DNA of 64,000 nt from a virus, in the IMG/VR virus record IMGVR_UViG_3300023179_000030, positions 62,001-126,000 of that record; one strand, 5' to 3'. Of the stretch, positions 8,589 through 63,101 are shown in pieces. Numbering within the stretch: the stretch's first letter is position 1; each line of letters opens with the position of its first letter. The notes beneath the pieces were generated by a model. The model saw only the letters and a program-made list of their open reading frames with translations. It had not been told where the DNA came from and made no database searches. The translations under genes and the position numbers were made by a program.

Positions 8589-9464
8589 TTAATCCTCATC
8601 TGAATAACCTCCACCTGAACTCATACCCTGCCTTGTATATGATGGATTTAAACCAGCCATTTCAAGTATATCATCACGTAAATTCTGATTGCGCTTTTCT
8701 ATGTTAAGCACTCGGGTAAAAGAATTTGTCAAAGCAGCAGTATAATAAGCAAATGGATTTTGGCTCTTACTTTCATCAAATTGCAGCCCAATTTGGCACA
8801 ATTGCACTAAGGCTTGCGATCTCATCTCGTCATTATATGTATAACCTCTCCAGTTACTGCGAGTAGCATATCTCTCACAGAGTTTCATAAACATAAGTGC
8901 TAGCTTTTTAGTCATACTGCCATGATCTCTACTAAATTCACCAGTGTGCAAACCCCCTCGCCAGTGGCTTTTTCCAACCATAATGGGTTCATTGTTTTCC
9001 GTCACCCGGTAATGTAAAAATGGTGGAAAATTAACCTTTACGTATTTGTTATGTTTGGGGTCTTCTTCATCATATTCGGTATGGGCCAGTTCTTCTTCAT
9101 CTTCATAAAGTTCCTTGGCCGTATCCCTGGCCTTTCGGGTTTTTATGTCATCTAAAGGTATATGCTCCCAGGTCATGACTCTAAAAACTACTTCAGAGGG
9201 TAAAATCTTGCTGATTTTAATTTCAAAATCTGATTGCTTTTGTTTAGTACCGGTTTCTAAAACCGCATTATCATAGGCCACTTTGCTCAAACGCTCAGCT
9301 CTGAGCTTTCTGCCTGCTAGTATAGTTTTTTTATTGATCTCACTGACATCATTGATGATAATATCATAATCGGCATCCAGTGGGTCTGAATATGAGCAAT
9401 AGGAATTTTTACTTTTGTGAATTTCTTTCAAAATATCTTTGTTGTTTAAATAATTGATTCTAAT
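8589..9464 (-). CDS. 55: Late transcription sigma factor gp55, ATT start, enlarged N-half
   Basis: A 291-residue relative of T4 gp55 (185 residues), the sigma-like factor that directs host RNA polymerase to late promoters with the gp45 clamp. The start NYLNNKDIL matches the T4 N-terminus, and the last 100 residues match its core (SNWRGYTYNDEM, then a FDESKSQNPFAYYT segment). Between them lies an insert of about 120 residues with a strongly acidic stretch. The C-terminus ends in SGGGYSDED and lacks the hydrophobic SLDFLYE-type clamp-binding tail of T4. The start is inferred to be ATT at 9464: AGGAG lies exactly 7 nt upstream, and the only conventional start, TTG 9497, lies in the promoter spacer, upstream of the expected transcript. 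Confidence 0.85.
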   Translation of the reverse strand: MRINYLNNKDILKEIHKSKNSYCSYSDPLDADYDIIINDVSEINKKTILAGRKLRAERLSKVAYDNAVLETGTKQKQSDFEIKISKILPSEVVFRVMTWEHIPLDDIKTRKARDTAKELYEDEEELAHTEYDEEDPKHNKYVKVNFPPFLHYRVTENNEPIMVGKSHWRGGLHTGEFSRDHGSMTKKLALMFMKLCERYATRSNWRGYTYNDEMRSQALVQLCQIGLQFDESKSQNPFAYYTAALTNSFTRVLNIEKRNQNLRDDILEMAGLNPSYTRQGMSSGGGYSDED

Positions 9465-9476
9465 TTTGAATCTCCT
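9462..9476 (-). promoter_or_regulatory. Ribosome binding site AGGAG and ATT start of gp55
   Basis: Minus strand: AGGAG (9476-9472), 7-nt spacer, ATT (9464-9462). The spacing is identical to two other genes in the window (40032-40018 and 61942-61928). Confidence 0.7.
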
Positions 9477-39042: not shown

Positions 39043-39374
39043 AAATTAGATAAAATCCTATCAGTTTCGGGCTGTACCGTTCTCTCAACCTCGTCTATGT
39101 CCACAAAAAAATCCACGTTCTCAATGTAATCCCCAAGATCATCTAATCTCTGATTTAAGTGATTTTGAATGTCATCAGGATCTAGACCCTCAGTTAGCAA
39201 TTGTTTGATGTCCACAAAAACGGTAGTACCATCCTTGAGATAAACTACCAATTTTTCCAATACCTGTATGGGTACTTCGCTTTTTTCAACGTCTTTGAGA
39301 ATATTTTTCCAAGCGGCCTTAGTACTAAGATTAAGCTTCTTTGACTTTGGCTTTTTTGGGCTTTGCTGTGACAT
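39039..39374 (-). CDS. Conserved phage protein of unknown function
   Basis: A 111-residue protein from the ATG at 39374, inside the end of the previous gene (44-nt overlap). The N-terminus is Lys/Ser-rich; the rest is acidic, with DIKQLLTEGLDPDDIQNHL and a DYIENVDFFVDIDEV stretch typical of a protein I have seen repeated in marine T4-like phages. Its size resembles T4 gp33, the late co-activator, but no sequence evidence supports that. It lies in the operon leading to DHFR-ThyA. Confidence 0.6.
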   Translation of the reverse strand: MSQQSPKKPKSKKLNLSTKAAWKNILKDVEKSEVPIQVLEKLVVYLKDGTTVFVDIKQLLTEGLDPDDIQNHLNQRLDDLGDYIENVDFFVDIDEVERTVQPETDRILSNL

Positions 39375-40020
39375 TTTTAATTTTTGTATTTGTATTGCTA
39401 AATGCTTCTGATTCTTGTTGTAACCTAGCAGCCTCAGCCAACATTGCACGAGCTTCTCTTTCGAGTTTTTGCGCCTGAGCTAATCTCTGTGTAGCAAGTT
39501 GCTCATCAGTCAGAACATCACTGATATTGATGTTGCTTTGTGACTCAGCTGGGGTACTGCGGCTTTGTGCTGGGGTACGAACTTCACCTAGTATATTTCC
39601 TTCAGACGTTTTGCGTTTGCCATTCATTCCTCGATTAGAATCAAGCTCAGCTAGTTCTTTGACCGCTTCTTCTCCCAAAGCCATTTTGGCTAAAATACTG
39701 TTGAGTTCATCTAACCTAATGTTGCTTTTAGCATCGGGGGTTACTAAAATTTGATTAGTGGGCACCTTTTTAATCATACCCTCTTTATGTAGAGTGTGAA
39801 GTCCATTGGTGCCATCTACTAGAGTATATCTAAATAGATAATCTGCAAATTCTTTGGCTTGTTGACCTGAATCAGATTCCAAGGCTTTCATGACGTCATC
39901 ATGAATGTGTCTTGGGAGAACTTCGGGGTAGATTACTAATGCCATATGATCTTCATTTGGCACAGTTTTAAATAGTATCACCACTTGCTTGTTATTGTGT
40001 TTTCCTACATGTTTAATAAT
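39331..40020 (-). CDS. Conserved phage protein with an ATT start
   Basis: A 229-residue protein if started at ATT 40020, which lies 7 nt after AAAGGAG. The added N-terminus (IKHVGKHNNKQVVILFKTVPNEDHM in two parts) matches what I remember of relatives in marine phages, which begin MKHVG or MIKHVG; later GTG (39984) or ATG (39945) starts would remove it and have no ribosome binding site. The conserved N-half includes YPEVLPRHIHD and a GLHTLHKEGMIKKVPTNQ segment; the C-half is Glu/Ala-rich coiled coil ending in Lys-rich sequence. Function unknown; possibly a regulatory protein. Confidence 0.75.
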   Translation of the reverse strand: MIKHVGKHNNKQVVILFKTVPNEDHMALVIYPEVLPRHIHDDVMKALESDSGQQAKEFADYLFRYTLVDGTNGLHTLHKEGMIKKVPTNQILVTPDAKSNIRLDELNSILAKMALGEEAVKELAELDSNRGMNGKRKTSEGNILGEVRTPAQSRSTPAESQSNINISDVLTDEQLATQRLAQAQKLEREARAMLAEAARLQQESEAFSNTNTKIKNVTAKPKKAKVKEA

Positions 40021-40032
40021 TTTAGTTCTCCT
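40018..40032 (-). promoter_or_regulatory. Ribosome binding site AGGAG and ATT start
   Basis: Minus strand: AGGAG (40032-40028), 7-nt spacer, ATT (40020-40018). Same geometry as the gp55 and DNA polymerase starts. Confidence 0.65.
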
Positions 40033-58771: not shown

Positions 58772-61700
58772 TTATTCAAATGTAAAAAGAGAGTTAAAAG
58801 TGGAATCAATGTCAGTGTTCTCTGTAATGTGCCAGTTGAGTACCCCCAAGAGGTTCTCGACCTTTTGATCCACGATACCAGCTTCCATCAATGAATCATC
58901 GAATGGAAGATCCCTAAACCAACTTGGAATACGAGTTTCGTCAGTGGGGTATCCCACACTGGTATAGCCCATGGGGTTATTTTTTAACTTACATACTATG
59001 GTTTTCATGCCATCTACGATTGCCAAACTGTGATTGTCACCGTGTAATCTCCTAAGATTATTCCAATTCATGGCAGCTCTGACATGACCTGGCATAGAGG
59101 CGCGGCCTTTTACATGTTCTGTTTCTGTGTAATTTGTTAAGTTATTAACCCGTTTTGGTGTTCCTTTTTCCCAGGGTTTTTTATCCTGAAATTTAATTTT
59201 AAACTCTCGAACTTTGGCAATGATCTCATCGCGTTGAGCACCAGTGAGTACGTCTAGTAAAATCTCACTGAGAAAATCTTGGACTACTTTGGGAGTGTCG
59301 CTGCGTTTCAAGTCCAAACCCATGGCCTTGACTTTTCCTGGTTTACCATTGACATCCAACCGCTTACCTTCTTTGTCAATAATAATTGCAGCATAGCGTT
59401 TCTTTTTAATAAACAATCCCTTGCTGGCAACCAGTTCCCTACCGCCTCGGATTATTTCACCCATACTGCGAGGGCAATGAAACGCACGTTCCATAAATCC
59501 AGGAAAACTGGCATTTACTTGGTCTGCAATGTTATCGTAGACTTGAATGCAAGTTTCTTTGTCCCAGGGCATTGTGCCAGCCGCAACCTCAGATTTGACT
59601 ACAGGCCACGCACTGAAATAGACCGAGTCTGTATTATGTAAAAGTATATCATTTCCAAAGAAAAATGGGTCTTGTTTATCTATACTGATATCATAAACAT
59701 AATCATCTATTTCCCCAATACATACTACACTTTTTACCGTTGTGCGTTCAACATCTATTTTGTCACCTTTTGAATGACATAAACAAATAATTAGATCATT
59801 GTCTAAAATTTCAGTTGGTTTAACTTCTATTAGAAAACCATCTCTATCGACCATTACACTATGATCTTCAGTTACTTTGACTATTTTTCCGTTTTCTAGT
59901 GTTATTTCATAAATATTCTTTTTAGTTTTATGACGCATAACATAAGTAATTTCACTCATCACCGGAGAATCTTCAAACGCATTAAACCCAATTACTTTAG
60001 CAAAGGAGTGTGTGCCATATTCTTTGCCTTCTATAATGGAATGATGTTGACATTGATTAAATAACTCCTTGATAGTTATTTCTCCTGAGTCGGTTTTAAT
60101 TTTTGTGTCCTCAGTAACGCTGTCACCATAAATAATTGACTCTCCTCGATGGTCAGCATTTCCAGTTATGATATCGTTAACTGTGGCAGACATATGCTTG
60201 GCTATGGCTCTACCAGTTAACGTAGTTGATTGACCAATTCTTATGTCTGAAAATCTACAACCTGGATTCAAAATTGCACCATACAGTGAATTCAAATTAA
60301 TTTTTTTCACCAATTGCCTTTTGTCCCAGTATTCTATATCTTCAGCATTGCCCGCGGCCTGAGCTTCTTTGAGTTTCTTTTGTAGATCTTTACGTTCAGA
60401 ATACCAACGAGCCAATAAACCTGGTATTATACCAGGTTTTTCATAACTAAAAATGGTCCCATTAGCGCTGAGTATCCAGGGTTTACCACTGTTAAATATT
60501 ATGTTCCAGACTTCGTTGGCAGTAACCGATGAGCTAGTACCATCTGCTTCCCAGTCAATGGTTAAATTTAGTCTGTTATCACCGTTCATAACGGCTTCAT
60601 ACTCCAAACTACCAAACAACCCCTCCCAAGCACCAGAAAATGTTTCACCTGCCAGCATTTTGTCGGAGATGTATTTTTCGGTATGGTCTTGTCTCAATTG
60701 CCCAATGATTGTTTCAGGCCCCATGTTGAGGGCGCGTATGGTTGATGGGTACAGGCTGTTGATGTCGATTGCTCCGATCCATTCATGCATTCCCTTTTTG
60801 GGAGTAGCAACATAGGCACCTGCCGCATGTGTTTCGTCTTCGTCTCGGCCTTTTCTATCAGGAACGACCAATCCTTTGCTGTGTGCTTCATTTATAATTG
60901 CCTGCTCCGTGGTTTGTACTACTCCCATTGTTGTGGGCAACAACACAGTATTGTCGTGTGCAATGGTGTTGACTAAATCTAAAAAACGGAGCTTTCTATC
61001 TAGCTTTGCCAACAAACGAGTATCTTGCCTATTGTATTCAAGGAATTTTTCAAAGTCCCTGTTGTACAATTGATCCAATGTTCCTTCATAGGGCACTTTA
61101 TGTTCATTTAATTCATATTCACCTATGGCATCCAAACTATAACTATGCCGTTCCTCATAATTATATTTTCTATAGAGTTGCATGTAGTCTAAGTGAATCC
61201 TACCTATTAGGTCATAGGTGATATTCTTAGCGCCAAAACGTTCAAACTCTCTAGCTTTGGGATATTGGTCCCACAAGCATAAGCGTCTAGTATCATCTTT
61301 GCTGAGCACTCTAACAATTCTACCCACTGTATAGGGTATATCATAGGTTTCTGAATTCCAACCACTGATGACATCGGCATCATCAATTAAATTTAGAAAG
61401 GAATCCAACATATCTTCTTCACGCTCAAAGATGTAACAATCTTCGAACTTTGAGCATATCTCCAGGGCGGTTTCCCAACTTATTGTTTTGGGTGGCAAAG
61501 CCAATGTCACCAGTCTGTCTAACCAGTCTAGATACACAGATATGGCAGTTATATTATTAAAGGGGTCGCTGGCAGGCGCAAATCCTCGTGAAGGGTGAAA
61601 ATTTGATTCAATGTCGAAAAAAGCAGTATGCAGTTTGGGAGTATCGGCATTTAAATAATTTGTTTCAAGACATCGGTTTACTGGTTTGATGTCGCTTTCC

Positions 61701-61930
61701 CAAATTTGTGTTCCGCTATGCATGCGTTTTTCTTTTTGGAACTCTTTACCACTGCGTGTAGTAAACTTAGTAACGGGGGTATCAAAGATGGTTCTATGCT
61801 TTCCTTTTGGATCAGAATAATAAAAAACATAATTGGCAGGGTATTCTTGATATACCCTCAAGCCATTGACACGTTCAACGACATGAACTATATCTGTTTG
61901 TTTGTCTAATAAAGCATCAATATAACTAAT
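58772..61930 (-). CDS. 43: Family B DNA polymerase gp43 with a mini-intein, ATT start
   Basis: A 1052-residue precursor; about 889 after splicing (T4 gp43 is 898). Exonuclease motifs: FFDIES (Asp106, Glu108), NSETYDIPY and YNRQDTRLL. Polymerase motifs: DINSLYPS (A), KKINLNSLYG (B) and YGD-TDS (C), the last interrupted by an intein after Asp603. The start is inferred as ATT 61930, 7 nt after AGGAG; the first conventional start, TTG 61861, has no ribosome binding site and would cut off 23 residues (ending VVERVNG) that belong to the conserved N-terminus as I remember it. It replicates the phage genome with the clamp encoded next. Confidence 0.93.
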   Translation of the reverse strand: MSYIDALLDKQTDIVHVVERVNGLRVYQEYPANYVFYYSDPKGKHRTIFDTPVTKFTTRSGKEFQKEKRMHSGTQIWESDIKPVNRCLETNYLNADTPKLHTAFFDIESNFHPSRGFAPASDPFNNITAISVYLDWLDRLVTLALPPKTISWETALEICSKFEDCYIFEREEDMLDSFLNLIDDADVISGWNSETYDIPYTVGRIVRVLSKDDTRRLCLWDQYPKAREFERFGAKNITYDLIGRIHLDYMQLYRKYNYEERHSYSLDAIGEYELNEHKVPYEGTLDQLYNRDFEKFLEYNRQDTRLLAKLDRKLRFLDLVNTIAHDNTVLLPTTMGVVQTTEQAIINEAHSKGLVVPDRKGRDEDETHAAGAYVATPKKGMHEWIGAIDINSLYPSTIRALNMGPETIIGQLRQDHTEKYISDKMLAGETFSGAWEGLFGSLEYEAVMNGDNRLNLTIDWEADGTSSSVTANEVWNIIFNSGKPWILSANGTIFSYEKPGIIPGLLARWYSERKDLQKKLKEAQAAGNAEDIEYWDKRQLVKKINLNSLYGAILNPGCRFSDIRIGQSTTLTGRAIAKHMSATVNDIITGNADHRGESIIYGDSVTEDTKIKTDSGEITIKELFNQCQHHSIIEGKEYGTHSFAKVIGFNAFEDSPVMSEITYVMRHKTKKNIYEITLENGKIVKVTEDHSVMVDRDGFLIEVKPTEILDNDLIICLCHSKGDKIDVERTTVKSVVCIGEIDDYVYDISIDKQDPFFFGNDILLHNTDSVYFSAWPVVKSEVAAGTMPWDKETCIQVYDNIADQVNASFPGFMERAFHCPRSMGEIIRGGRELVASKGLFIKKKRYAAIIIDKEGKRLDVNGKPGKVKAMGLDLKRSDTPKVVQDFLSEILLDVLTGAQRDEIIAKVREFKIKFQDKKPWEKGTPKRVNNLTNYTETEHVKGRASMPGHVRAAMNWNNLRRLHGDNHSLAIVDGMKTIVCKLKNNPMGYTSVGYPTDETRIPSWFRDLPFDDSLMEAGIVDQKVENLLGVLNWHITENTDIDSTFNSLFTFE
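59633..60121 (-). other. Continuous mini-intein in polymerase motif C (163 residues)
   Basis: It starts with Ser1 (SVTEDTKIKT), has block B VTEDHS at 83-88, and ends LLHN; the +1 residue is Thr. No homing-endonuclease motif (LAGLIDADG or HNH) is present. The site YGD/TDS is a known intein insertion point in family B polymerases. Confidence 0.9.
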
Positions 61931-61942
61931 GATAAATCTCCT
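61928..61942 (-). promoter_or_regulatory. Ribosome binding site AGGAG and ATT start of the DNA polymerase
   Basis: Minus strand: AGGAG (61942-61938), 7-nt spacer, ATT (61930-61928). ATC, one codon earlier, is a poorer alternative at 4 nt. Confidence 0.65.
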
Positions 61943-61946
61943 GCAA

Positions 61947-62240
61947 TTAAGTAGTTAACATTCTGATGAGACCTATGCTGTCAATCGTCACCAGTAAGCA
62001 GTAATTAGCCAACATACTAAAACTTTTACGAGTCCAAGCAGCCCAGGCATACATACAGCATCCCAGCATCCAAATTGGATATAAAATCATAAGTGGAGGA
62101 TTTGGCACTGTTAGAGACATCGCTATGGAGCAGCCAATACTAATGGCCCAGGCAAAGATCTCAATTGCAAACCTAATAGGGTGTGTGCGGTAGTCATCTT
62201 TTATCCACGACAAAACACCACGAGTGACATCCAAGATCAC
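61947..62240 (-). CDS. Small polytopic membrane protein
   Basis: A 97-residue protein with about three hydrophobic segments: IEIFAWAISIGCSIAMSL, LMILYPIWMLGCCMYAWAAW and a C-terminal YCLLVTIDSIGLI. It begins with a soluble WIKDDYRTHP stretch. The family is common in large phages; function unknown. ATGA overlap with the DsbA-like gene upstream; the polymerase follows 16 nt after its stop. Confidence 0.7.
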   Translation of the reverse strand: MILDVTRGVLSWIKDDYRTHPIRFAIEIFAWAISIGCSIAMSLTVPNPPLMILYPIWMLGCCMYAWAAWTRKSFSMLANYCLLVTIDSIGLIRMLTT

Positions 62241-62497
62241 AACGTTTTTCCAACAACTTCAAGTATGGAATTCAATTCCTCATGATCTCGATTGGTATCC
62301 CCCAAGTTTGCCTTGTGGGCAATTTTAATAGCTTTGCGTAAAATAGCCGGTTTGATTTCAAGTTCTTCTGCTATTGCCTTTATGGTATCACTGAGACCTG
62401 CGGATAAATCTTCTACTTCTCGCAAAACACTCATGCCTTCATTGACTAAATTAACTAATTTAATTTTGGCTTCGCCATTAAATGACCGTTCTGACAT
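62237..62497 (-). CDS. DsbA-like double-stranded DNA-binding protein
   Basis: An 86-residue protein resembling T4 DsbA (89 residues), which binds late promoter regions: the segments AKIKLVNLVNEGMSV, DTIKAIAEELEIKPAILRKAIKIAHK and a terminal EELNSILEVVGKTL follow its helical plan (KxxLGxxxxxFxxxxxLxHK). Similarity is moderate and judged by eye. AGGAG lies 6 nt before the ATG. It heads the transcript leading into the membrane protein and DNA polymerase. Confidence 0.6.
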   Translation of the reverse strand: MSERSFNGEAKIKLVNLVNEGMSVLREVEDLSAGLSDTIKAIAEELEIKPAILRKAIKIAHKANLGDTNRDHEELNSILEVVGKTL

Positions 62498-62663: not shown

Positions 62664-63101
62664 TTATCTGGTGCTTGCCCTAAGCATCCAGCTGTGTTTT
62701 CTATGAGCGTCCATTCTATCAGCTAAAAAGTTACATAACCCATATTCTCCTGCTGACTCAGAAAGATCATAGACTAATTTAAGTATTTTGACCGTTTTGT
62801 CGCTGTCAGACAGTAATTCTTCTATCATCATTGACACTGGTGGGACTTGGGTTTCGTCCTGGATCTCAGTGAGCATGCTTAATCGTGTAAAACTGCCGGG
62901 AGTATAACTTCCCAATTTGCGAATGTTTTCGGCAAAATCGTCGATACTACCGTAGACTTCTTCATAAATTTTGCCAAATAGTTCGTGGTATTCAGCAAAG
63001 TCTGGGCCCTCCACATTCCAATGATAGAAAGCAGATTTTAAATAGAATGAAAATTCTGTAGAGAATGCAATTTTCATTGCTTTAATTAGTTCATCGTTCA
63101 T
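62664..63101 (-). CDS. Dps/ferritin-like protein
   Basis: A 145-residue four-helix protein of the Dps family. The signature HWNVEGPDFAEYHE (His27, His39), then SIDDFAENIRKLG (Asp54, Glu58) and the late DRMDAHRKHSWMLR match Dps. One ferroxidase ligand, the Asp four residues after the second His in E. coli Dps (HEMLD), is Gly43 here, so iron oxidation may be weakened. Dps binds DNA and detoxifies iron and peroxide; in a phage it could protect or condense DNA. The ATG follows the preceding stop by 4 nt. Confidence 0.82.
   Translation of the reverse strand: MNDELIKAMKIAFSTEFSFYLKSAFYHWNVEGPDFAEYHELFGKIYEEVYGSIDDFAENIRKLGSYTPGSFTRLSMLTEIQDETQVPPVSMMIEELLSDSDKTVKILKLVYDLSESAGEYGLCNFLADRMDAHRKHSWMLRASTR

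Follow-up and report, generated by a model that had tools for sequence, protein, structure and literature searches.

The DNA polymerase gene of this phage probably begins at an AUU codon that lies behind a strong Shine-Dalgarno (SD) sequence, and we give a probability of roughly 0.7 to the reading that this AUU is the true start and acts as a throttle on polymerase synthesis. The gene lies in the window, the 64,000-nucleotide stretch analysed here (positions 62001-126000 of a virus record 126,241 bases long), together with a gene for a late-transcription sigma factor that carries the same design. Throughout, AUH stands for the near-cognate starts AUU, AUC and AUA.

A candidate AUU start for the phage DNA polymerase

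The elements under discussion, all on the minus strand, are the following.

58772..61930, minus strand: DNA polymerase, family B, 1052 aa, with an intein (Pfam and PHROG profiles)
61928..61930, minus strand: proposed ATT initiation codon of the DNA polymerase (gp43-like), sharing an alignment column with the ATG, TTG, GTG, ATC and ATA starts of relatives and lacking a canonical start
61938..61942, minus strand: polymerase SD sequence AGGAG, 7 nt from the ATT (from the sequence, with equal spacing at gp55 and at a gene at 39-40 kb)

The window polymerase is a T4 gp43-like family B DNA polymerase, with profile matches to DNA_pol_B (PF00136, 3e-30), DNA_pol_B_exo1 (PF03104, 7.7e-16) and PHROG 262 (1.4e-182) and structural matches to the RB69 and T4 polymerases. 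Its intein of about 163 residues (window 59633-60121, minus strand) sits in the catalytic motif (YGD, then S...HN, then TDS) and is supported by Pfam Intein_splicing (3.4e-13) and by the similarity of the solved chain 9hth across that part.

Read on the minus strand, the start region is ...TTAATTGC AGGAG ATTTATC ATT AGT TAT ATT GAT GCT..., with TAA 61957-61955 as the in-frame stop upstream. Between this stop and TTG 61861 the polymerase frame contains no ATG, GTG or TTG. The minus-strand sequence therefore confirms the original prediction that the polymerase is preceded by AGGAG, 7 nt and ATT, with no usable ATG, GTG or TTG. TTG 61861, which is codon 24 of the polymerase, is the first canonical codon downstream, and neither an SD match nor a purine-rich site stands before it. 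Codons 2-23 align with those of relatives without a gap over the 22 codons after the start, and a comparison of the window with ten AUH relatives gave pS of about 0.8-1 against pN of about 0.2-0.3. Such strong purifying selection argues that the segment is translated and that TTG 61861 is not the start. The earlier statement that a start at this TTG would lack a ribosome site and cost 23 conserved residues thus holds on both counts.

It has to be asked whether the true start lies elsewhere, at TTG 61861 or at ATC 61933, and the AUU is an illusion of annotation. TTG is a common start in this polymerase family (41-44 distinct loci), and ATC 61933-61931, directly ahead of the ATT, is itself an AUH codon located 4 nt from the AGGAG. 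The TTG, however, would forfeit residues that are present in all relatives examined, and the ATC, besides its short spacer, lies one codon ahead of the column in which relatives initiate. The homologue alignment favours ATT 61930, with ATC 61933 perhaps a minor alternative initiation point, and either AUH codon would lead to the same biological conclusion. We therefore consider a start elsewhere very improbable. When the homologous N-termini were aligned, as the original prediction had proposed, all those examined began at the ATT column or at most two residues from it, and a search for homologues without the entire 23-residue segment found none among them. Initiation of relatives in the same codon column, together with selection on codons 2-23, supports the predicted AUU start.

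Near-cognate starts in the polymerase family

Among relatives retrieved by protein similarity, the residue aligned to the window ATT is the initiation codon, which is ATG, TTG or GTG in many and ATT, ATC or ATA in several. A pattern scan for GGAG, a short gap, ATH and then the conserved SY[VI]DA codons yielded about 34 polymerase contigs in which an SD is shortly followed by ATC, ATA or ATT. Start counts in the distinct set were ATG 84, TTG 44, ATC 17, ATA 10, ATT 4 and GTG 2, where one of the four ATT cases (L080) is not a start, TTG being next, and the AUH rows come partly from the pattern scan. AUH starts occur in 32 of 171 distinct polymerases (the window included and one misread isolate removed) and require at least 16 (about 16) changes on the tree; with six codon states the minimum is 35 changes, and ATG, TTG, GTG and AUH often interchange. 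In some lineages AUH starts appear to be long-lived, since the pairs L239/L246, L234/L083, L028/L247 and L233/L241 have kept the same AUA or AUC at pS 0.69-0.94 and pN 0-0.09.

The isolates MIJ3, Phosso, Atu_ph07, SCTP-2, RaK2, GAP32, KP13-7 and a Vibrio phage have ATG in the column or within two codons of it; the relatives with AUH starts are known from environmental DNA alone. Pseudomonas phage MIJ3, which had given the impression of an ATT case in the alignment, was dropped because its ATG is the next codon. The closest relatives of the window polymerase, most of them 78-80% identical over the N-terminal 343 residues, start with ATG or TTG, and the ATT is therefore not deeply conserved in its own lineage. 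As judged from these alignments, AUH initiation recurs across the polymerase family and is not conserved among the closest known kin of the window.

The polymerase leader

Upstream of the polymerase lies a further reading frame:

61947..62240, minus strand: 97-aa ORF with hydrophobic stretches, ending at TAA 61949-61947, 16 nt before the ATT (from the sequence)

In the relatives G031 (L719), G045 (L728) and G037 (L722), the stop of the corresponding ORF overlaps the polymerase start (ATGA or TTGA), and an AAGGA sits within the ORF. Compared with these leaders, that of the window has about 20 extra nt that bring in the AGGAG, and it has lost both the internal AAGGA and the stop-start overlap. 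Judged by this longer leader, the new AGGAG and the lost AAGGA, the window polymerase appears to have exchanged a coupled ATG for an AUU behind a strong SD of its own.

Two other upstream ORFs were noted in passing. An 86-aa ORF ending VGKTL* (window 62237-62497, minus strand) matches PHROG 12534 and 639 (transcriptional regulator); several relatives have its stop codon immediately next to the polymerase start or overlapping it. A 145-aa ORF (window 62664-63101, minus strand), upstream of the polymerase block, looks Dps/ferritin-like by sequence alone.

The rebuilt leader bears on the suggestion that ATT 61930 arose through faulty sequencing or assembly, or through a recent, deleterious change of ATG to ATT in this one genome. 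Such an event would fit a record that is a single assembly and whose nearest relatives use ATG or TTG at this position. It fits poorly with the rebuilt leader, with two other genes of the same record that share the design, and with the recurrence of AUH at this column in independent contigs, where the codon is kept between diverged pairs. We give this explanation very little weight.

Many relatives have a hairpin at the polymerase SD with an 8-nt loop, GCCN[UC]AAN. It was found in 90 of 172 family leaders (for example L072, L115, L088 and L055) against 0.45 expected in shuffles, and its flanks covary: 51 of 56 distinct flanks pair at three or more positions, compared with 20.6 (maximum 30) when partners were shuffled. 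A hairpin with this conserved loop is absent from the window polymerase leader, and Rfam returned no match for the window or for six hairpin-carrying relatives. The hairpin is present in 5 of 32 AUH leaders and in 85 of 139 others. The idea that a weak start replaces the hairpin was not upheld in a sign test on independent pairs (median p 0.625-1), and we therefore do not claim that hairpin and AUH avoid one another.

In its sequence the relatives' hairpin recalls the operator through which T4 and RB69 gene 43 is autocontrolled. Gene 43 is under translational control in T4, the hairpin of the relatives may control the same gene in a like manner, and the loop GCCN[UC]AAN is reminiscent of the T4-group loops -UAAC- and -UAAA- (PMC3014915). 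The positions differ: in T4 the hairpin is some 40 nt upstream, in the relatives it adjoins the SD or comes shortly before it. The window leader has no hairpin.

The late sigma factor gp55

A second gene of the window shares the arrangement:

8589..9464, minus strand: late sigma factor gp55, 291 aa (PHROG 12791 'sigma factor for late transcription', 2.1e-77; PHROG 234, 8.6e-24)
9462..9464, minus strand: proposed ATT initiation codon of the late-transcription sigma factor gp55 (ATT or ATC in this column in 73 distinct sequences)
9472..9476, minus strand: gp55 SD sequence AGGAG, 7 nt from the ATT (from the sequence)

The product is a T4 gp55-type late sigma factor. The original prediction, confined to the polymerase, had overlooked this second case. 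Retrieval by similarity gave nine distinct ATT sequences. One is that of the window, to which the others are 62-78% identical, and in all nine GGAG lies at 6-7 nt; the remaining relatives retrieved in this way start with GTG, ATG or TTG. A pattern scan found 66 distinct AUH genes (ATT 60, ATC 6, ATA 0), and in the combined set 73 of 228 start with AUH (ATT 67, ATC 6, ATA 0). On the tree the trait changes at least 13 times, compared with about 62 when labels are shuffled. Internal isoleucine codons of the AUH gp55 genes are 48% ATT, 28% ATC and 24% ATA and differ from the starts (p 4e-13, with kinship ignored), which argues that the start is no ordinary isoleucine codon. In a sample of gp55 contigs drawn blind to the start, 3 of 120 stretches had ATT, which places the trait in a subgroup. 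Bacterial genome contigs scanned for gp55 gave matches only on distant marine MAG contigs. To judge from these comparisons, the gp55 ATT start is kept in a large group of related phages despite extensive sequence divergence, and the AGGAG-ATT design is better conserved in gp55 than in the polymerase.

Both the window polymerase and gp55 thus appear to be AUH genes, each with its codon in the homologous start column and no usable canonical start, and the strong, well-spaced SD appears to accompany the near-cognate start. Most AUH cases came from a pattern that itself requires GGAG, and the association was therefore tested on the similarity-retrieved gp55 genes, a small unbiased sample in which GGAG lies at 5-9 nt in 9 of 9 ATT genes against 6 of 64 others (Fisher p 5e-8, with kinship ignored). 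The gp55 genes without ATT mostly carry AAGGA as their SD. The unbiased polymerase sample comprises five AUH genes.

Specificity within the genome

A mechanical scan of the 104 ORFs of the 126 kb record picked out the polymerase, gp55 and a gene at 39-40 kb as the only ones in which ATT follows AGGAG and a usable canonical start is lacking, which speaks against a coincidental pairing. All three read exactly AGGAG, 7 nt, ATT. The elements of the third gene are these:

39331..40020, minus strand: phage protein of unknown function, 229 aa, PHROG 15894 (PHROG match)
40018..40020, minus strand: proposed ATT initiation codon of this protein (relatives start MIKHVGKHN, with ATG in the column)
40028..40032, minus strand: SD sequence AGGAG, 7 nt from ATT 40020 (from the sequence)

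Its PHROG 15894 relatives mostly have ATG at the start column, and none has ATT.

Across 15 contigs with 734 ORFs there were 12 AUH matches, all of them the polymerase, gp55 or the third window gene. Because an AUH start at gp43 or gp55 was the reason for choosing these contigs, the informative figure is one more among about 720 other ORFs. The 55 other sense codons together gave 15 matches on the same contigs, mostly in low-scoring frames. Another seven contigs, with 1,412 ORFs, yielded gp55 and two doubtful frames, bringing the AUH starts that passed the filter in 22 contigs and 2,146 ORFs to gp43 6, gp55 6, the 39-40 kb gene 1 and doubtful frames 2. The two principal genes need not carry the trait together. 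G001 has a polymerase AUC and a gp55 TTG, G031 and G037 have a gp55 AUU with a polymerase ATG or TTG, and the window's record is so far the only one with AUH at both genes within one phage.

This distribution bears on the view that the AUU is indeed the start but is nearly neutral, the host tolerating near-cognate starts and ATG having drifted to ATT in a few genes with no regulation involved. The third base of polymerase AUH starts varies among T, C and A, the start codons of that family swap often, and the third gene has ATT in the window alone, all of which drift would produce. Against it, AUH starts are not scattered over the other ORFs of either contig set, and those of gp55 are nearly always ATT, unlike the internal isoleucine codons, and come with a strong SD. 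We consider neutral drift unlikely. A generally permissive host would likewise be expected to scatter AUH starts, and their restriction to gp43, gp55 and one other gene speaks against it. An unusual initiator tRNA was also rejected: the window's record, which is possibly incomplete, contains no tRNA genes, and other relatives have ordinary sets. Some relatives do carry large tRNA arrays, with 24 genes in G002 (86 kb, polymerase AUC) and about 40 in G037 (338 kb, gp55 AUU). A phage-encoded IF3 was sought in 13 phage records and no IF3_C domain was found, although controls gave matches.

Discussion

Taken with the comparisons above, our preferred reading is that AUU 61930 initiates the polymerase and that the strong, optimally spaced AGGAG would position the ribosome on it. 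The AUU should pair with the CAU anticodon of initiator fMet-tRNA at two of three positions, leaving a third-base mismatch. IF3 is expected to disfavour such a codon, and strong SD pairing may restore part of the initiation. In vitro, correct fMet initiation for AUU/CAU is lowered by IF3 (PMC10158994), and AUU and AUA starts with an extended SD in S. aureus yield about 10% of AUG (PMC13009471). Because IF3 discriminates against the AUU mismatch, initiation would be inefficient and the protein level low and capped, as precedent suggests.

The gp55 gene of a large group of related phages may use the same throttle of strong SD and weak codon, and we suspect that the combination probably keeps both polymerase and gp55 scarce. 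In T4 the sliding clamp mediates the action of both gp43 and gp55, and gp55 is also a competitor of host sigma, which makes it plausible that either protein is dosage-sensitive. Since the two proteins connect replication with late transcription in T4-type phages, the likely purpose would be to keep both of these regulators at low levels; a response to initiation-factor state might come as a second effect. T4 itself restricts gp43 by translational autocontrol (PMC3014915). A more ambitious and rather doubtful extension is that the AUH starts form a small translational regulon in which gp43 and gp55 are tied to the cell's balance of IF3 to ribosomes, such that initiation-factor state helps to time the onset of replication and late transcription. 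Sensing of IF3 state, as put forward in the original prediction, is plausible in that it would agree with the precedents of infC, pcnB, sigR and ccpN.

These precedents are alike only in part. The infC (IF3) and pcnB genes of Escherichia coli share the AUU start and the expected low expression, and IF3 dependence would follow from the codon (PMC5472188; Binns and Masters 2002, cited through PMC13009471 and PMC9410913). They are, however, bacterial rather than phage genes, IF3 autocontrol is specific to infC, and no IF3 gene was found in the phage records searched. In Staphylococcus aureus, ccpN (AUA), which encodes a transcription regulator, and cvfC1 (AUU) likewise combine a conserved near-cognate start with a strong, well-spaced SD (PMC13009471), but these are cellular Firmicute genes with ribosome-profiling proof, whereas the phage replication and late-transcription genes described here are known from sequence. 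The sigR gene of Streptomyces resembles gp55 as a sigma factor whose non-canonical start limits synthesis and is repressed by IF3 (PMC5472188), a limitation that gp55 may share; its start is GTC rather than AUU or AUC, and its product is a host stress sigma rather than a phage late sigma. The principle is thus known in bacteria. We could not find a description of it at work, on this scale, in the genes for replication and late transcription of phages, nor any earlier phage example of an AUU, AUC or AUA start in the open-access literature, and this use seems to be new.

AUU, AUC and AUA starts have been viewed as rare oddities in a handful of bacterial genes, and here they are proposed for more than 100 distinct phage genes in two core functions. 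Standard gene finders do not call AUH starts, and these polymerases and late sigma factors would therefore be annotated in truncated form or missed. The natural variation among AUH, TTG, GTG and AUG in a single column, with SD strength to match, provides a comparative set for studying how start codons tune phage development, and the same set could show whether viruses exploit the discrimination exerted by IF3.
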